NCBI GenBank assembly: GCA_028709385.1
Contig: JAQVXD010000010.1
Coordinates: 1-64,000 of the forward strand
Reading direction: 5' to 3'
Length of the DNA: 64,000 nucleotides
DNA from: Fermentimonas sp.
GTDB taxonomy: Bacteria > Bacteroidota > Bacteroidia > Bacteroidales > Dysgonomonadaceae
How positions within the stretch are numbered: position 1 is the first letter of the stretch; each line of letters starts with the position of its first letter. Of the stretch, positions 2,161 to 14,273 are shown one piece after another. Below the pieces are notes generated by a model. That model was not told the origin of the DNA, did no database searches, and saw only the letters and a program-made list of their open reading frames with translations. Made by a program: the position numbers and the translations under genes.

Positions 2161-4170
2161 ATGTTAGACATTATTAAAAACGACCCTTGGCTGGAGCCAT
2201 ATTCCAAAGCGATTAACGGCCGGCACAATTACTACCTGAAAAGATTGTCTGATTTAACGAAAAACGGTAATATCAAATTATCTGATTTTGCAACAGGACA
2301 CCTCTATTTCGGATTACACAAGACATCTGATAATTGGGTTATTCGTGAATGGGCGCCAAATGCCACTGAGATTTTTCTTGTTGGCACATTTAATCAATGG
2401 CAACATCTTGAGTCTTTCCGTTTGCAACCCATTGGCAGTGGTGTCTGGGAAGTAAAGGTTCCGCTCAATCACATTAATCATGAAGATCTCTATAAACTTA
2501 ATGTAAAATGGCAAGGCGGCTCGGGCGAGCGTATTCCGGCCTGGAGTAAAAGAGTTGTTCAGGATTCTGAAACAAATATATTCAGTGCTCAGGTTTGGGA
2601 GCCTGAACAGAAATATACATTTAAACACAAAGATTTCGAACCAGACACCTCCCCCCTCCTTATATATGAGACACATGTTGGAATGTCTACAGAAGAAGAA
2701 AAAGTTGGTACTTACAATGAGTTCCGCGAAAACATTCTTCCACGTATAAAAAAAGCAGGATATAATGCCATTCAAATAATGGCAATACAGGAGCATCCCT
2801 ATTATGGGTCTTTTGGATATCATGTATCCAGTTTTTTTGCACCATCATCAAGATGCGGCACACCCGAAGAGTTGCGGGAATTAATCGATACCGCACATGA
2901 TATGGGAATATCGGTAATTATGGACATCGTTCACTCACACTCTGTCAAAAACGAAACTGAAGGTATAGCCAGGATGGACGGATCATACGATCTGTATTTT
3001 CATAGTGACCCATCGAGAAGATATCATCAGGCATGGGATTCATTATGCTTTGATTACGGAAAAGATGAAGTACTTCATTTTTTACTTTCAAACTGCAAAT
3101 ACTGGTTGGAAGAGTTTAAATTTGACGGATTCAGATTTGATGGCGTCACCTCTATGATATACCTCAGTCACGGACTGGGTGAGTCGTTTTCAAACTATAG
3201 CTACTATTACAATGCAGGTCAGGATGGAGATGCTATATGCTATCTGACACTTGCCAATCAGCTCATACATGAAATTAATCCAAAAGCAATAACTATTGCT
3301 GAAGAGGTTAGCGGAATGCCTGGATTGGCGATGAATATCTCGGGAGGCGGTTATGGTTTTGATTATCGTATGGCTATGAATATTCCTGATTTCTGGATAA
3401 AAACCATAAAAGAGAAAAAGGACGAGGATTGGCATCCATCATCAATATGGTGGGAAACAACAAACCGGCGGAGTGATGAGAAAACAATATCATACAGTGA
3501 AAGCCATGACCAGGCATTAGTTGGCGACAAGACAATTATATTCAGACTTATCGATTCAGATATGTATTGGTATATGTCGAAATTAACAGGAAGCTCTTTT
3601 AAGGTAGACCGTGGAATTGCTCTTCATAAGATGATCAGACTGGTTACTGCAACAACTATTAACGGTGGCTATCTCAATTTTATGGGAAATGAATTCGGTC
3701 ACCCCGAGTGGGTTGATTTCCCTCGTGAGGGCAATAACTGGTCATACAAATATGCACGCAGACAGTGGCATCTTGCAGATGACAAAAATTTAAAGTATCA
3801 CTATCTTGGAGACTTCGACAGATCAATGATTGAACTAATAAAGTCTGTTCCCAATTTTCAGGATACAACACTTGTGAAATTATGGGACAAGGATGATGAT
3901 AATATTCTGGCATATATGAGAGATGATTTGATATTTGCATATAATTTCAATCCTCAGAATTCATACAGCGATTACGGTATATTAGTTCCAGAGGGGGAAT
4001 ACAATATAATTCTTGATACAGATGATAAAGATTTTGGAGGTTTTGGATTGAATGATAAGTCAATTAATCACTTCACACAATATGACCCTTTGTATTCCGA
4101 ACACAAAAAAGGATGGTTAAAATTATATTTGCCTGCCAGAACAGCTCTTGTATTAAGAGCAAAAAAGTAA
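2161..4170 (+). CDS. glgB: 1,4-alpha-glucan branching enzyme (GH13 with CBM48-like N-terminus)
   Basis: NQWQ..., GFRFDGVTSMIY, AEEVSGMP and YSESHDQALVGDKT motifs; TATCTTTG promoter element at 2109-2116. Confidence 0.93.
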   Translation: MLDIIKNDPWLEPYSKAINGRHNYYLKRLSDLTKNGNIKLSDFATGHLYFGLHKTSDNWVIREWAPNATEIFLVGTFNQWQHLESFRLQPIGSGVWEVKVPLNHINHEDLYKLNVKWQGGSGERIPAWSKRVVQDSETNIFSAQVWEPEQKYTFKHKDFEPDTSPLLIYETHVGMSTEEEKVGTYNEFRENILPRIKKAGYNAIQIMAIQEHPYYGSFGYHVSSFFAPSSRCGTPEELRELIDTAHDMGISVIMDIVHSHSVKNETEGIARMDGSYDLYFHSDPSRRYHQAWDSLCFDYGKDEVLHFLLSNCKYWLEEFKFDGFRFDGVTSMIYLSHGLGESFSNYSYYYNAGQDGDAICYLTLANQLIHEINPKAITIAEEVSGMPGLAMNISGGGYGFDYRMAMNIPDFWIKTIKEKKDEDWHPSSIWWETTNRRSDEKTISYSESHDQALVGDKTIIFRLIDSDMYWYMSKLTGSSFKVDRGIALHKMIRLVTATTINGGYLNFMGNEFGHPEWVDFPREGNNWSYKYARRQWHLADDKNLKYHYLGDFDRSMIELIKSVPNFQDTTLVKLWDKDDDNILAYMRDDLIFAYNFNPQNSYSDYGILVPEGEYNIILDTDDKDFGGFGLNDKSINHFTQYDPLYSEHKKGWLKLYLPARTALVLRAKK

Positions 4171-6873: not shown

Positions 6874-6962
6874 TAATGCTGTAAAAATACCACGTTTGTG
6901 CTATTTCAATTTCATCTTCCAGTCAATATCTTTGTAAAAACAAAATTTTAGAGATAAATAAT

Positions 6963-7931
6963 ATGACAAAAATTGCAGCAAACCTCACAGAACTAGTAGG
7001 TAATACACCTTTATTAAAACTAGGACATTACGGAAAATCCGAAGGAGCAAAAGCAAATCTTCTTGCTAAACTAGAAAGCTTTAATCCGCTTGGAAGTGTT
7101 AAAGACCGCATTGCTCTGGCAATGGTTGAAGATGCGGAGAAAAAGGGAATACTTAAACCCGGTTCAGTTATTATCGAACCCACAAGTGGTAATACGGGAA
7201 TAGGTCTGGCATTTGTATCTTCAATTAAAAAGTACAGACTCATTCTCACAATGCCTGAAACTATGAGTCTTGAAAGAAGGAATTTACTTAAAGCACTGGG
7301 AGCGGAACTCGTGCTTACACCAGGAGCAGAAGGAATGAAAGGAGCTATTGCAAAGTCTAAAGAACTTCAGTCACAAACACCAAATGCTATTATTCTTCAG
7401 CAATTTGAAAATCAGGCAAATCCTCGGATCCATTATCAGACAACTGGTGAGGAGGTTTGGCGGGATACCGATGGCAAGGTTGATATTTTTGTCAGCGGTG
7501 TTGGTACTGGTGGAACAGTGAGCGGTGCAGGTAAACGTTTAAAAGAACACAACCCTGATATACAAGTGGTGGCAGTTGAACCAACAGACTCACCGGTTTT
7601 GTCAGGTGGAAGTCCTGGCCCTCACAAAATTCAGGGTATAGGAGCAGGGTTCGTTCCTGGTACATACGATGCTTCTGTTGTTGACCGAGTGTTTATAGTA
7701 AGCAACGACGATGCAATACTTGCAAGTCGCAAATTAGCTTCTACTGAGGGACTACTCGTTGGAATTTCTTCCGGAGCGGCAGCATATGCTGCATTACAGC
7801 TTTCACTTGAACCGGCAAACGAGGGTAAAAATATTGTTGTGATACTCCCTGATACGGGTGAACGTTATCTATCTACAGTACTTTACGCTTTCGAGGAATA
7901 CCCAATACAACTTTCAAAGGTTGAAGATTGA
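6963..7931 (+). CDS. cysK: Cysteine synthase A (O-acetylserine sulfhydrylase)
   Basis: [25 protein letters not shown] (PLP lysine), [36 protein letters not shown]. Confidence 0.94.
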
Positions 7932-7953: not shown

Positions 7954-8058
7954 ATGAACTCAGGATTAAATAAGATGCAGAGTGTGATGGTTATGTTGAT
8001 GACAGCAATGAAAAAATGTTGTTGTAAATTACATAATCAGCCTCCTCTGCATATCTGA
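7954..8058 (+). CDS. Putative cysteine-codon leader peptide: MNSGLNKMQSVMVMLMTAMKKCCCKLHNQPPLHI (possible shorter start at 8008: MKKCCCKLHNQPPLHI)
   Basis: Three consecutive TGT codons at 8017-8025; stop 8056-8058; 28 nt before the 5' arm of an intrinsic terminator; not in the supplied ORF track because of its length. Confidence 0.65.
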   Translation: MNSGLNKMQSVMVMLMTAMKKCCCKLHNQPPLHI

Positions 8059-8094
8059 ATTATATTTTGGGTATCACAAAACGGAGCGGCTGAT
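8036..8094 (+). promoter_or_regulatory. Predicted antiterminator stem: ATCAGCC (8036-8042) with GGCTGAT (8088-8094), alternative register adding CTCC/GGAG
   Basis: AATCAGCC occurs at 8035-8042 and again as the terminator 3' arm at 8101-8108, so both compete for GGCTGAT at 8088-8094. Confidence 0.6.
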
Positions 8095-8116
8095 CTAAAA
8101 AATCAGCCGTTTTTTT
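8087..8116 (+). terminator. Intrinsic terminator upstream of susC-like gene (attenuator)
   Basis: CGGCTGAT (8087-8094) ctaaaaa ATCAGCCG (8102-8109) followed by 7 T. Confidence 0.8.
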
Positions 8117-8159
8117 AATATTTAGTCCAATAACTTTTAATAAAAAATAGTTAAATCGC

Positions 8160-11100
8160 ATGAAATTAATTTTTGTCCTCCTAATTCAATTAATAATATT
8201 TGGTGCATATGCACAAAATGACAAAACTGTTGTAATAACTGGTAAAGTAACTGATCAATATAATGAGCCTCTGTTAGGGGTTACGATAGCTGATGTTAAC
8301 AATAGGGGAAGCGGTACCGTTACAGATATAGATGGTAATTACCGTATAAGTACAATTAACGGCACTACTCTCGAATTCTCATATATAGGATTTAAAAATC
8401 AGACTGTTAGTGTAGTAGAATCTGCAACAGTCAATATTAAACTTGAAGAAGCAACTACAGCCTTAAATGAAGTTATTATTACTTCTTTAAATATTCCCCG
8501 TGAAAAAAAGGCTTTAGGATATGCTGTACAGGATGTTTCTTCCGAAGCATTTCAAACAAGACCTACTAATCCGATGACTGCTCTTTCGGGAAAAATTGCA
8601 GGACTCCAGGTAATCTCAGGCGGAAGTAATTTAGGTGGATCTTCAAGGATTATATTAAGAGGTATTAACTCGATAACTGGAAACAACCAACCGCTTTATG
8701 TTATTGATGGTGTGCCACTTGACAATAGTGAATTTAACAGTTCATCAACAATAAACGGAAGTGCCGGAAAAGATATGGGTAGCACAATTCAGGATATTAA
8801 TCCTGATGACATAGCAAATGTGAATGTATTAAAAGGGCCATCAGCAGCAGCCCTTTACGGATCACGAGCAGCTAATGGTGTTATACTTATTACTACTAAA
8901 AAGGGAAGAGGTGGAGACGGCAAAATCAATATCGAATTAAATACAGGCGTAGAAATGGAAAATGTTGTCAGACTTCCTGTGCGTCAAAAAATTTATGGTG
9001 GTGGATATAATACAACTTTCAGTACAGCTGAAATAAATGGCACTACATATAATATTGTAGATTATGCAGGAGATGAGAGCTGGGGGCCAAAGCTAGATGG
9101 CACTCCTGTTCTCCATTGGTATAACCTGGATCCTGAGTATCCTGAGTATTATCTTAACCCGGAGCCATGGATTTATCCTGAAAATGATGTTCATTATTTC
9201 TTTAAGACTGGTATTGCAAATACTAATAATATATCACTATCGAAATCTAATAAAAACTCAGATTTCAGGGTATCATTCACTAATAAAAATGTAGGAGGAA
9301 CTGTTCCCAATTCATCTCTTGGGAAAAATAGTCTGAGTATCTCAGGTAATGTTACTGGCGATCTTTTATCGTTTTTTGCTAGTGCAAATTACATTAAGAC
9401 TTCAACTACAGGGCGACCTTGGACTGGAGCTTCAAATAGAAATATTATCCTGGAAGCTTATCAGTGGGGTCATGTACAGGTTGATTATAAAAAACTCAGT
9501 GAATACAAAAGACCTGATGGCACTCCCAGAGCATGGAACCGTACTGGCTATCAGAACACGGTTGCAGATGAAAAGACTAAATATATCGACAATCCCTATT
9601 GGTCGGCATACGAGAGTTATCTGAAAGAAGACAGAAACAGACTCTATGGTAATTTTGGAATTGTATTGACTCCTACCCCATGGCTATCAGTAACAGGTCG
9701 TTTGAATGCCGATATATATGATTATGATTTTCAAGACAGAATAGCCTTTAACTCCCGTTCACAATCTATGTACCAGGAGTACAACCAAAAATATGAAGAG
9801 TTCAACTACGAATTACTAGCGACAGTCAACAAATCATGGAATAATCATTCATTTGTTGCAAATGCAGGTACAAACTTTCTCCAAAGAAACAGAAGGATAA
9901 GTGATATATCCACTTCCGGAGGTCTTATCATACCAAATTACTACAGCCTTAATAATGCAACATCAACAATCATTAATCCCACAACTGGTATATATAAAAA
10001 ACAGCTCTCTTCGGTTTACGGGAGTGTCTCATACGGTTGGCGCAGTACTTTTTACTTAGATGGCACTTTTCGTAATGACTGGTCTTCAACTTTACCGGTT
10101 GAGCACAATTCATATTTCTACCCTTCAGTTACTTCATCAGTTATACTTAGTGAACTACCATCTTTACGTGATCAGGACTGGTTATCATTTGCTAAGTTCC
10201 GTTTAGGATGGGCTCAGGTGGGTAATGACACAGACCCATATCAACTTTATAAAGTTTATGAAGCTGTAAATTCAATAAATGGTAAAAGCGCATACAAGAT
10301 GCCCGACCAGCTAAATAATATCAATCTGAAACCTGAGATAACTTCTTCTTTGGAAACCGGAGTGCAATTGCAGTTTTTCCGTGACCTTATTAATCTTGAT
10401 TTTACATATTATAATAACACGAGCAGAAATCAGATAATATCACTACCTACATCAGATGCTTTCGGTTATTCCTCAAAATTAATTAACGCCGGAGAAATAA
10501 ATAATAAAGGTATTGAAGTTATTTTAGGTATAAATCCTGTGAAAAGTTATAACTGGGACTGGAATACAACGATTAATTTCTCAAGAAATATAAACAAAAT
10601 AATTAAGCTTTCAGATGCTGTAAACAAGCTGAATCTCAGCACGACACTTGTAACTCTTACTGCGCAAGAAGGAAAAAGCTACGGTCAGATCGAGGGATAC
10701 GATTTTGTATATGCTCTAGATGGACAAAAGGTTATTGATGATAACGGTTTATACATGCGAACTCAGCAAATCGTACCCCTGGGTAGTGTACTACCTGACT
10801 TTTTGTGGAGCTTTCAAAACGGTTTGCGATATAAAAACCTGAGATTTAATTTTCTTGTTGACTCTCGTGTAGGTGGAAAATTCTATTCACAAACCTACTC
10901 AGTTGCAATGTATTCAGGCATTCTTCCTGAAACAGCAGCAAACGGAATTCGTGAAACAGGTGTAGTAGCTGATGGTGTTACTGCTGATGTAACTTTTAAT
11001 TCTGATGGAACATACAGCGTGACAAACGCAGAGCCAAACACAAAAAACGTATCTGCACAGGCTTGGTCTAGAAATCATAGAAACGGACCTACTACATTCA

Positions 11101-11348
11101 GCATTTTCGATGCTACCTTTATCAAGTTAAGGGAGATATCTATGGGTTATGATTTTAAGCTGTCTGAAAACAGTCCTGTAAAAAGTATCGGAGCATCTGT
11201 TTACGCCCGCAACCTGTTTTATTTATACAGGGAGAGCAAAACCATTGATCCTGAGTTGACCAATAGCAGTGGAAATGTCCAGGGTATAGAAGGAGGTAAT
11301 ATGCCTACACCTTTAACTTATGGCATCAACTTGAGTCTTAGATTTTAA
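8160..11348 (+). CDS. SusC/RagA-family TonB-dependent outer-membrane transporter
   Basis: VITGKVTDQYNEPLLGVTI carboxypeptidase-D-like domain; PLYVIDGVPLDN; LKGPSAAALYGSRAANGVILITTKKG plug motif; C-terminal beta strand SLRF. Confidence 0.95.
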   Translation: MKLIFVLLIQLIIFGAYAQNDKTVVITGKVTDQYNEPLLGVTIADVNNRGSGTVTDIDGNYRISTINGTTLEFSYIGFKNQTVSVVESATVNIKLEEATTALNEVIITSLNIPREKKALGYAVQDVSSEAFQTRPTNPMTALSGKIAGLQVISGGSNLGGSSRIILRGINSITGNNQPLYVIDGVPLDNSEFNSSSTINGSAGKDMGSTIQDINPDDIANVNVLKGPSAAALYGSRAANGVILITTKKGRGGDGKINIELNTGVEMENVVRLPVRQKIYGGGYNTTFSTAEINGTTYNIVDYAGDESWGPKLDGTPVLHWYNLDPEYPEYYLNPEPWIYPENDVHYFFKTGIANTNNISLSKSNKNSDFRVSFTNKNVGGTVPNSSLGKNSLSISGNVTGDLLSFFASANYIKTSTTGRPWTGASNRNIILEAYQWGHVQVDYKKLSEYKRPDGTPRAWNRTGYQNTVADEKTKYIDNPYWSAYESYLKEDRNRLYGNFGIVLTPTPWLSVTGRLNADIYDYDFQDRIAFNSRSQSMYQEYNQKYEEFNYELLATVNKSWNNHSFVANAGTNFLQRNRRISDISTSGGLIIPNYYSLNNATSTIINPTTGIYKKQLSSVYGSVSYGWRSTFYLDGTFRNDWSSTLPVEHNSYFYPSVTSSVILSELPSLRDQDWLSFAKFRLGWAQVGNDTDPYQLYKVYEAVNSINGKSAYKMPDQLNNINLKPEITSSLETGVQLQFFRDLINLDFTYYNNTSRNQIISLPTSDAFGYSSKLINAGEINNKGIEVILGINPVKSYNWDWNTTINFSRNINKIIKLSDAVNKLNLSTTLVTLTAQEGKSYGQIEGYDFVYALDGQKVIDDNGLYMRTQQIVPLGSVLPDFLWSFQNGLRYKNLRFNFLVDSRVGGKFYSQTYSVAMYSGILPETAANGIRETGVVADGVTADVTFNSDGTYSVTNAEPNTKNVSAQAWSRNHRNGPTTFSIFDATFIKLREISMGYDFKLSENSPVKSIGASVYARNLFYLYRESKTIDPELTNSSGNVQGIEGGNMPTPLTYGINLSLRF

Positions 11349-11382: not shown

Positions 11383-12936
11383 ATGAAAATATTTAATATA
11401 TCACTAGCTTCTCATTCAACAGTTTTATTACTGCCTTTAGTTTTCTTTTTCTCATCATGTATTGATGAGAATCTCAATATCGATCCAAACAGGCCATCGT
11501 CGGTACAAACAACTTCACTAATCGTTACAGCTCAGAAACAACTTGTGGACAATGTTAAAAGTGAGGCTGCATCTCTGCGCAGTTCTGCACTATTCACACA
11601 ACAGATTAGTCAGGTTACATACACAAGTCAGTCACGTTATGACATCCCATTCAGTTATTCGGAAACTATCTGGAACGGACTATATAAGGCCTTGAATAAT
11701 CTTCAGGAAATTATCACACTAAACAGTGACCCGGATACCAAAGATCTGGTAACTGCAGACGGAGCAGGTAGAAACTCAACTCAGATTGCTATTAGCCGCA
11801 TTTTGAAATCCTATGCTTTTTATGCACTTACCGATATTTTTGGTAATGTCCCTTATCATTCTTATGGTAGTGATGATCCCGAATTTGAAGCACTCCAGCA
11901 AGACACAGACAATCTAACACCTGGTTATGCTTCACAAGAAAAGATTTATGCGGATATCCTAAACGAGCTTAAACAGGCTAGTGATACTTTACTTAAGTAT
12001 CAAACAGAAACAACATTTGGTTCTTCTGATATTATTTATGCAGGAAATAATCATAAATGGGCAAAATTTGCAAATTCACTCAGATTGCGTTTTGCTACCA
12101 GGTTAAAGAATAAAAACCCCGACATTTACAATTCTCATTTCTCAGATGCACTTACAAAAGGTGTGTTTACAAGTAATTCCGACAATGCTATATATAAATA
12201 TTCAACTGCTTCTCCCAACGAAGCTCCATATTATCGTGCTACAGTTACTGCAAACAGACGTGACTTTGCAATTTCTAAACCATTCATAGATCTGCTAAAG
12301 GGAGATAATCCACAGTTACCATTTGCAGATCCCAGACTCAGTAAATATGCATCGTTAAACAGTAATGGTGAATATGTAGGATTACCATACGGACTTACAG
12401 AATCTGAAGCAGGCAGTTTTCCTGCAACAGAAGTTAGTCTGCCAGGAGCAATATACAGTGCACCTGATTTTGGTGAGGTACTTATGGAGTATTCAGAAGT
12501 TGCTTTTCTGCAATCAGAATATAATGGGTGGAATCACTCCGACTATGTAAACGGTGTCAGAGCATCACTCGCGAAATGGGGAGTATCAACAAATGATGCT
12601 GAAAATTATATAGCATTGTTACCCGAAGCTAACCAAAGAAATGTTCTCAATCAGAAATACATAGCACTTTTCTCTCAGTTCCTTGAAGTATGGAGTGAAT
12701 ATCGCAGATCTGGTTTTCCCGATTTTCTTATAAAGACAGGCGATGTTATTTATTCGGGTCCGATAAATGGTGGACAGGCAACATATACTTTCAATCCACT
12801 TTTTGGAGATGGTGGCATTCCATCACGTTTGTATTATCCGGTGAAAGAGCAGTCTGTAAACCTCGAAAGCTATCAGTCAGCAATAAGTAAACAGGGAAAC
12901 GATGTAATTGAAACTAAACTATGGGTGTTTAAATAA
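11383..12936 (+). CDS. SusD/RagB-family lipoprotein (SusD-like_2 type)
   Basis: Lipobox FFSSCIDENLNIDPNRPSS; position after SusC; AISRILKSYAFYALTDIFGNVPY. Confidence 0.9.
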   Translation: MKIFNISLASHSTVLLLPLVFFFSSCIDENLNIDPNRPSSVQTTSLIVTAQKQLVDNVKSEAASLRSSALFTQQISQVTYTSQSRYDIPFSYSETIWNGLYKALNNLQEIITLNSDPDTKDLVTADGAGRNSTQIAISRILKSYAFYALTDIFGNVPYHSYGSDDPEFEALQQDTDNLTPGYASQEKIYADILNELKQASDTLLKYQTETTFGSSDIIYAGNNHKWAKFANSLRLRFATRLKNKNPDIYNSHFSDALTKGVFTSNSDNAIYKYSTASPNEAPYYRATVTANRRDFAISKPFIDLLKGDNPQLPFADPRLSKYASLNSNGEYVGLPYGLTESEAGSFPATEVSLPGAIYSAPDFGEVLMEYSEVAFLQSEYNGWNHSDYVNGVRASLAKWGVSTNDAENYIALLPEANQRNVLNQKYIALFSQFLEVWSEYRRSGFPDFLIKTGDVIYSGPINGGQATYTFNPLFGDGGIPSRLYYPVKEQSVNLESYQSAISKQGNDVIETKLWVFK

Positions 12937-13037: not shown

Positions 13038-14273
13038 ATGAAATATATAACATTACTCTTACTAACAGCATTAATTACAGCAACATCCTCGTGCAACCAG
13101 CAGGTAAAAACAGCTAAACTGCAAAGTGGAACTTGGCTGGGTGAGCTCGAAGTTGCTGAAAACAAAAAGGCACCATTTCTATTTGAAGTGAGTAATTCAA
13201 ATTCCGACTCGTCAACTGTGACACTATTAAACGGAGAAGAAAGATTCGCACTTGAAGGTGTATCATTCAAAAATGACACACTTATAATACCAATAGTCGC
13301 ATACGACGCAGTAATAAAAGGTATTGTTACTGATAATATAATAGACGGCAAGTTTATAAAGAATTATATCGAAAATGATCCTGGTGTGCCTTTTAAGGCA
13401 ACTTATGGAATTGGAAACAGATTTGAGCCTGTAGATCAACCCGTTTCACAACAAATAGATGGTAAATGGGATGTACTTTTTCTAAGTGAACAGGGAGAAA
13501 CAACTAGCAACGTCGGGATTTTCAAAACAGATAACAATATCGTTACCGGCTCAATATTAACACTCTCAGGTGATTTACGTTATCTTGAAGGAGCATACAA
13601 AGAAAATGGAGTACAACTTTCTGCATTTAGTGGATTAAGTCCTTATTATATCGATCTTAGTTTCACAAGTGAAAACAGTTTTGAAGGGACATTTTATACA
13701 ACAAAGGGTACAACCCGTTTGATTGGCACAAAAAACGAAGATGCAGAATTAGCCGACCCCTATTCATTGACCGGACTCAAGGAGGGATATGAAACTTTAA
13801 GTTTCGAATTACCGGATCTTAACGGTAATATGGTTTCTCTTAAAGATGAAAAGTATCAGGGTAAAGTGATTATTGTATCTATACTTGGAAGCTGGTGCCC
13901 CAACTGTCTCGACGAAATGGCATTTCTGGCACCATGGTATGAAGAAAACAGAAATCGCGGAGTTGAGATTATTGGAATTGCTTTTGAAAGAAAAGATGAC
14001 TTTGATTATGCGCGTCGAACGCTTACTCAGCTAAAAGAAAGATTCAATACTGGATACCCTTTACTCTTTGGAGGTGCCGTAGGTAGAGAAAATGTTGCAG
14101 GTGCGTTACCTGAACTGGAGAATTTCTCGAGTTACCCAACAACATTGTATATCGACAAAAAGGGTAAAGTGCGTAAAGTACATACCGGCTTTAACGGACC
14201 GGCAACCGGATTATTCTATGAAGAATTTAAAAAGGATTTTAATCAATTAATAGACTCTCTTCTGGAAGAATAA
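13038..14273 (+). CDS. TlpA-like thioredoxin-fold lipoprotein
   Basis: Lipobox TATSSCN; redox motif GSWCPNCLDEM; FSSYPTTLYIDKKGKVRKVHTGF. Confidence 0.88.
   Translation: MKYITLLLLTALITATSSCNQQVKTAKLQSGTWLGELEVAENKKAPFLFEVSNSNSDSSTVTLLNGEERFALEGVSFKNDTLIIPIVAYDAVIKGIVTDNIIDGKFIKNYIENDPGVPFKATYGIGNRFEPVDQPVSQQIDGKWDVLFLSEQGETTSNVGIFKTDNNIVTGSILTLSGDLRYLEGAYKENGVQLSAFSGLSPYYIDLSFTSENSFEGTFYTTKGTTRLIGTKNEDAELADPYSLTGLKEGYETLSFELPDLNGNMVSLKDEKYQGKVIIVSILGSWCPNCLDEMAFLAPWYEENRNRGVEIIGIAFERKDDFDYARRTLTQLKERFNTGYPLLFGGAVGRENVAGALPELENFSSYPTTLYIDKKGKVRKVHTGFNGPATGLFYEEFKKDFNQLIDSLLEE

Follow-up and report, generated by a model that had tools for sequence, protein, structure and literature searches.

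A predicted ribosome-mediated transcription attenuator with cysteine control codons upstream of a SusC-SusD-TlpA operon in Bacteroidales

Organisation of the cysK-susC region

The window (the whole stretch of DNA analysed, 64,000 nucleotides from Fermentimonas sp.) contains a cysteine synthase gene, cysK, that is followed on the same strand by genes encoding SusC-, SusD- and TlpA-like proteins. Between cysK and susC lie a short open reading frame (ORF) with three contiguous Cys codons and an intrinsic terminator. A Cys-codon ORF with an anti-arm inside it, followed by an intrinsic terminator, precedes susC in all 15 orthologues of the genus for which the upstream region was included (most of them from draft or metagenome assemblies) and in a representative of another lineage (L046), and these 16 loci form the basis of our comparison. 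The features of the region, with their conservation among the 16 leaders, are as follows:

6887-6904, + strand: candidate sulphur-regulon operator before cysK, ATACCACGTTTGTGCTAT, degenerate, one mismatch to ATACC-N8-GGTAT (by sequence)
6927-6934, + strand: cysK promoter -7 element, TATCTTTG, Bacteroidota consensus TAnnTTTG; best promoter of the cysK-susC region
6963-7931, + strand: cysK, cysteine synthase A (TIGR01139, above cut-off), the upstream gene
7954-8058, + strand: predicted leader peptide ORF, 34 codons with six Met and three Cys, MNSGLNKMQSVMVMLMTAMKKCCCKLHNQPPLHI and stop; no in-frame stops in 16/16 orthologues
8017-8025, + strand: Cys codons TGT TGT TGT, the putative control codons (region 1); distance from a Cys codon to the anti-arm downstream of it, 17-22 nt in 16/16
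8036-8042, + strand: anti-arm ATCAGCC (region 2), within the leader ORF, pairs with 8088-8094; pairing kept except at one end column in one clade
8045-8086, + strand: predicted inner helices of the antiterminator, 8045-8049 with 8082-8086 and 8051-8059 with 8066-8074; -19.8 kcal/mol in the minimum-energy fold, with comparable composite folds in most of the other leaders
8083-8116, + strand: intrinsic terminator, a hairpin followed by seven T (regions 3:4); pairing in 99.5% of cells, with both sides changed at three pairs
8088-8094, + strand: terminator 5' arm GGCTGAT (region 3), common to terminator and antiterminator
8160-11348, + strand: SusC/RagA TonB-linked outer-membrane protein (TIGR04056), first gene of the operon predicted to be controlled
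11383-12936, + strand: SusD-like lipoprotein (SusD-like_2)
13038-14273, + strand: TlpA/ResA-like thiol-disulphide oxidoreductase

The coordinates that the initial annotation gave for the ORF, its Cys codons, its stop (TGA, 8056-8058), the terminator and the repeat arm were all re-read and are correct, and the SusC-SusD-TlpA system that it placed downstream of the leader is indeed there. The stretch from 7954 to 8116 occurs once in its own 2.83 Mb assembly, and the named genomes nearest to the window are those of Fermentimonas and Proteiniphilum.

The leader reading frame

A short ORF with a cluster of potential control codons, as found in ribosome-mediated attenuators, is present in 16/16 loci (translation is predicted). 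Over the 16 leaders the leader frame contains no stops in 518 codons, compared with 55 and 30 in the other two frames, and ATG triplets are concentrated in frame (84, versus 10 and 8 out of frame). Met is the commonest leader residue after the start (13.5%) and Cys makes up 8.2%, whereas the corresponding values for neighbouring proteins of the window are 1.1% and 0.4%; with one sequence per clade the enrichment has p values of ~4e-19 for Met and ~2e-16 for Cys. Met codons immediately precede the Cys codons in most leaders and others are scattered over the ORF. Since Met is even richer than Cys, the leader may sense both sulphur amino acids.

Five kinds of leader peptide are observed: A (...MKKCCCKLHNQPPLHI and ...MNVCCTKLHNQPSLYT), B (...MTMVMCCHRHRHQSLLYA), C (...MNMMMRCRCRCNDQLLLYV), D (...MMNCRKLPDSRHLLCT) and E (MYKLSMHIMCMSCRHFHVDDRPPLCS). 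The initial annotation had envisaged a CCC peptide in relatives; an ORF with Cys codons does occur in 16/16, but the exact CCC run is restricted to two close species and the other leaders carry CC, CRCRC, CCHC or a single C. The Cys run alone was dropped as evidence, because each genome has over 200 copies of the bare motif TGYTGYTGY on a strand. The ratio dN/dS was uninformative as a coding test for the leader, since pN is close to pS in several leader pairs, and frame and composition were used instead. There is thus little purifying selection on the whole peptide sequence, and the weak difference between silent and replacement changes fits a peptide whose sequence would be of minor weight outside the control codons.

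Terminator and antiterminator

The terminator arms (CGGCTGAT at 8087-8094 and ATCAGCCG at 8102-8109) are followed by seven T residues (8110-8116). An intrinsic terminator lies between the leader and the first gene in 16/16 loci, with a 12-pair helix and a T tract, and the terminator scores above all shuffles on several measures. The sequence AATCAGCC occurs at 8035-8042 and, letter for letter, again at 8101-8108, as initially annotated, and the resulting complementarity between anti-arm and terminator 5' arm recurs in all 16 leaders. For the window sequence alone the 7-bp complementarity has p = 0.0055 against dinucleotide shuffles. In the alignment of the 16 leaders (137 columns), 95.5% of cells in the 7-pair helix are paired, and this falls to 54.5% or less when the partner is slid by one to three columns. 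It is the conservation across 16 orthologous loci, neither the Cys run nor the single complement, that constitutes the decisive sequence evidence for the predicted switch.

The antiterminator helix shares the 5' arm of the terminator, and the two structures would be mutually exclusive. Five of its seven pairs vary, on one side only, and G-U pairs maintain the pairing except at one end position in clade D. No two-sided covariation was found in this helix in the 16-leader alignment, because the terminator arm is nearly invariant; a column-shuffle control is uninformative here for the same reason, one side hardly varying. The antiterminator is a composite: inside the helix of the anti-arm lie one or two further helices, to which the last part of the ORF and the sequence preceding the terminator contribute. 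Calculated fold energies for the 16 leaders range from -14.5 to -20.9 kcal/mol for the composite antiterminator and from -16 to -25 kcal/mol for the terminator. The terminator fold is favoured when all arms are free, as in known attenuators, and therefore the antiterminator could prevail only by folding earlier. The Cys codons can also pair with the anti-arm (regions 1:2) in a helix of four pairs, which has one two-sided swap and a folding probability of 0-0.25; since this helix is weak in folding, a 1:2 hairpin protecting the untranslated leader is only possible.

Spacing of control codons, anti-arm and stop

The position of the leader stop relative to the anti-arm is well maintained, the stop beginning 20-24 nt after the anti-arm start in 15/16 leaders (the exception is L028). 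The consequences of this spacing were modelled with a ribosome mask, on the assumption that the ribosome covers positions -17 to +12 relative to the A site. Placed at the first Cys codon, the ribosome leaves the antiterminator a probability of 0.94-0.97 in each of the 11 leaders that do not belong to clade D; placed at the stop, it lowers this value to 0.04 or less in nine of the 11, but not in L004 and L028. Within clade D, where only one Cys codon closely precedes the anti-arm and pairing is split between two competing registers, the modelled probability drops from about 0.5-0.6 at Cys to 0.02-0.18 at the stop. According to the same model, a stall at the third Cys codon of L006 would itself mask the anti-arm. 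Thus the spacing logic of the initial annotation, in which a ribosome stalled at Cys frees the anti-arm and one at the stop covers it, is borne out by the Cys distance (16/16) and the stop distance (15/16), and in the mask model it is contradicted at the stop by L004 and L028. One extra base in a C run of L028 (L028:1304-1425) carries the leader past the usual stop, and the mask model fails there; this may represent an assembly error or a decaying leader.

The abundance of Met raises the question of which amino acid is read. Methionine, or charging status in general, could be the main signal of the same attenuator, given that no residue after the start is more frequent than Met (13.5%) and that Met codons directly precede the Cys codons in most leaders. 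However, a near-constant distance to the anti-arm is found for the Cys codon only, the Met codons being scattered over the ORF, and we consider a main signal other than cysteine unlikely.

Distribution and evolutionary history

Orthologues of susC show 79-93% identity within the genus and 67-71% in other genera of the family, and more are present in named genomes. The leader invariably lies between an upstream sulphur gene and susC in the 16 loci; in most of them this gene is cysK, whereas clade D has O-acetylhomoserine sulfhydrylase at this place. The ORF and the duplicated arm, on whose conservation the initial annotation had made its reading depend, are kept in all 16 orthologous leaders, and cultured species of Proteiniphilum carry the attenuator. 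When a covariance model was built from the 16 leaders, it gave one match per genome in the 15 genus members (E < 1e-11), and no other match in 101 genomes of the family and 393 genomes of the order approached their scores. Lower matches of this model (L081-L095, L096) were rejected as further leaders, and are read as ordinary terminators lacking a Cys leader. In L088 (genus g6) an O-acetylhomoserine sulfhydrylase gene ends, near position 1588, in a terminator that resembles that of clade D and has no leader ORF; it is followed by ATACCATAAAAGAGGTAT and a gene resembling those for heavy-metal-associated domains, rather than by susC.

In the SusC tree the 16 leader-bearing sequences fall into a single, fully supported group that lies within a set of lineages under another type of control. 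From these sequences the attenuator seems to have arisen once.

Other arrangements were encountered upstream of susC. Petrimonas (L016, L017, L027, L053) encodes a different leader, MIVNIHQ(I/V)NNKKTFKLHETSCCCCRLSVFSRMCL, which contains four Cys codons, is located ~235-370 nt before susC and directly follows a consensus-like promoter (TACCTTTG). Folding of the sequence after this CCCC leader gave no clear intrinsic terminator, and for this reason it was left out of our count; it is perhaps an independent cysteine leader with another read-out. The susC orthologue of L027 (G046:C250:706-3780) has one in-frame TAG in the match, and may be a pseudogene or an assembly error. In Chitinophaga (L049, L051, L059) a conserved box like CCTATTTAGTCTATATAATTAATAGGG, less than 60 nt from susC, replaces leader or operator.

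Promoters and a candidate sulphur operator

The promoter element before cysK (TATCTTTG/TACCTTTG) is retained in the cysK-bearing relatives within the genus, and no conserved promoter comparable to it was found before the leader ATG or before susC across the 16 loci. Since a conserved promoter was found before cysK only, the switch probably acts on read-through from cysK. An independent susC promoter between 8116 and 8160, which the initial annotation had named as evidence against attenuation, has a weak candidate in TAACTTTT at 8131-8138, after the terminator; this has a counterpart in L003 and is not at the same place in the other 14 loci.

This weak element is relevant to the view that the hairpin is a mere cysK 3' terminator, that the ORF and the AATCAGCC repeat are coincidental, and that susC has its own promoter after 8116. 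A terminator following cysK would be ordinary, and a hairpin of this sort, lacking a leader ORF, is found at the end of the L088 sulfhydrylase gene. Coincidence is nevertheless difficult to reconcile with the retention of ORF, Cys codons, anti-arm and spacing in 16/16 loci behind two different upstream genes, or with the extreme counts of in-frame stops and ATG triplets, and the promoter-like element after the terminator is not conserved. We regard this explanation as quite improbable.

Outside the attenuator-bearing group, a palindrome, ATACC-N8-GGTAT, is found within ~180 nt of susC in Dysgonomonas, Paludibacter and Parabacteroides, in some as a one-mismatch copy; the palindromic sequence is present upstream of susC in L018-L026, L041 and L054-L057. 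Copies are likewise located upstream of cysK plus O-acetylhomoserine sulfhydrylase in both D. mossii and Paludibacter, upstream of cysK in P. goldsteinii, and, again in D. mossii, in the interval separating metQ from metNI. Operator-like sites are not more numerous in the D. mossii genome than in a reversed control, and therefore only sites adjoining clear sulphur genes were used. Sites at sulphur genes are present in L112, L113, L114 and L116 (centres near 3000). We consider ATACC-N8-GGTAT a candidate sulphur-amino-acid operator in several Bacteroidales.

No exact copy precedes susC in the attenuator-bearing loci. One-mismatch operator-like sites occur at -70 to -76 of cysK in L032-L034 and L038, and L046 has an exact site (ATACCATAAACATGGTAT) before cysK. 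To judge from the sequences, the attenuator seems to have taken the place of the operator at susC, once. Most simply, transcription would begin at cysK, governed by a sulphur operator, and the attenuator would set the share continuing into susC-susD-tlpA.

Proposed mechanism and importer function

RNA polymerase would reach the leader mainly from the cysK promoter. When Cys-tRNA is ample, the ribosome would proceed to the stop at 8056 and cover the anti-arm (8036-8042), so that the terminator forms and transcription ends; termination at the leader would also make the 3' end of the cysK transcript. When Cys-tRNA is short, a ribosome stalled at 8017-8025 would leave the anti-arm to pair with 8088-8094, the terminator would be excluded and the importer would be made. 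Shortage of Met may contribute through the many Met codons just upstream, in which case the leader would act as a sulphur-amino-acid switch.

It is possible to envisage the leader peptide itself as a metal or redox sensor acting through Cys and His residues, in the manner of CruR, which governs a TonB-dependent transporter by its nascent peptide (PMC9426467). Some leaders are rich in Cys, His and Arg (CCHRHRHQ, CCRRHKHQ) and some contain QPP, but the window leader has neither CXXC nor RAPP and is 34 rather than 145 residues long. Moreover, termination looks intrinsic rather than Rho-dependent, clade D has no His cluster, and both the neighbouring genes and the genes that share the operator in relatives are sulphur genes, all of which makes such a sensor very improbable. 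A riboswitch or T-box sensing a sulphur metabolite directly might be suggested by the structured terminator/antiterminator with its inner helices, but is scarcely credible given that no Rfam riboswitch or T-box reaches the gathering score and that the reading frame, not the inner-loop sequence, is conserved. Searching the whole window with Rfam covariance models yielded only a tRNA at gathering score and no regulatory family.

The region 7954-8116 is thus very probably a trp/his-type ribosome-mediated transcription attenuator of the susC-susD-tlpA operon, as predicted from its sequence; this reading in the initial annotation is strengthened by the ORF, Cys codons, anti-arm, terminator and spacing in relatives, the mechanism itself being a prediction. 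A wider proposal is that one attenuator reads Met and then Cys codons, sets the share of cysK transcripts entering the importer genes, arose once, and displaced the operator of the relatives, a transcription-factor input having been swapped for a ribosome input. We offer this tentatively, as a scheme somewhat more apt to fail than to hold as a whole.

The nearest solved relative of SusC is BT_2264 (5fq6), and BT_2263 is among the matches of SusD; this pair is reported to have been crystallised with a bound peptide. On the basis of the TlpA partner, the sulphur-regulon setting and the nearest solved SusCD relative, we would guess that the cargo is a sulphur-bearing organic compound, for example a Cys-containing or disulphide-bearing peptide.

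Comparison with known systems

Ribosome-mediated attenuation is a classical mechanism, and SusCD importers are usually discussed as being substrate-induced through sensor proteins. The predicted switch resembles the trp and his attenuators of Proteobacteria in its control-codon leader, its antiterminator with a shared arm, its intrinsic terminator and a stop codon that lets the ribosome cover the anti-arm. Those attenuators control biosynthetic operons, whereas here the target is a SusCD-TlpA importer in Bacteroidota, the control codons are Cys (perhaps Met) and the switch is probably located inside a cysK-susC transcript.

Cysteine-responsive attenuation has been shown for the leaderless polycysteine short ORFs of mycobacteria (Canestrari et al. 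2020, Mol Microbiol 114:93; via PMC9094748, PMC9031893). As far as the cited accounts go, these share with the window leader a short upstream ORF, contiguous Cys codons and attenuation in response to cysteine (predicted here), and differ in phylum, controlled genes and peptide. The mycobacterial cys leaders lack a conserved terminator hairpin (PMC1262725), whereas an intrinsic terminator and antiterminator are conserved here; as regards a leaderless start, no conserved promoter was found just upstream of the leader ATG. Mycobacteria, which the initial annotation correctly cited, are not the sole case, as Cys-codon attenuators are also predicted, without terminators, for actinobacterial cys operons (PMC1262725) and, with a terminator, for cysS of Rhodobacterales (the uORFC-8-2 motif, PMC8632094). 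In the portion of the latter account drawn on here, uORFC-8-2 likewise combines tandem Cys codons (two) in an upstream ORF with a following intrinsic terminator as a predicted ribosome-mediated attenuator, but it controls cysteinyl-tRNA synthetase in Alphaproteobacteria and no Met-rich stretch is reported (PMC8632094).

The nearest precedent for a Cys-bearing upstream ORF before a TonB-dependent transporter gene is CruR (DUF2946), the copper-responsive ORF before Bordetella bfrG, which also acts by transcription termination (PMC9426467). CruR is an exported protein of 145 residues with CXXC and a C-terminal RAPP, responds to copper and employs Rho-dependent termination (PMC9426467); these defining motifs are absent from the window leader, which has 34 residues, CCC and no RAPP. 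Within the same phylum, leader-peptide attenuation, the same general mechanism, has been predicted for amino-acid operons of Flavobacterium psychrophilum, although the cited part of that work concerns biosynthesis operons and names no cysteine leader or SusCD importer (PMC9723704). Leader-like short ORFs have been noted in B. thetaiotaomicron (PMC7366714).

The literature searched held nothing on point on SusC/SusD/TlpA in connection with sulphur or on cysteine attenuation in Bacteroides, in keeping with the initial view that cysteine attenuation at a SusCD system is apparently undescribed. The SusCD-TlpA system described here is apparently governed by sulphur-amino-acid shortage, with the ribosome as the sensor; in relatives the control would lie with an operator that the importer shares with cysteine and methionine genes. 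One operon would thus be subject to two kinds of control, an evolutionary swap, and control by sulphur shortage provides a testable clue that the importer cargo is a sulphur source. For Bacteroidota, the leader would represent a defined attenuator that responds to cysteine and employs an intrinsic terminator.
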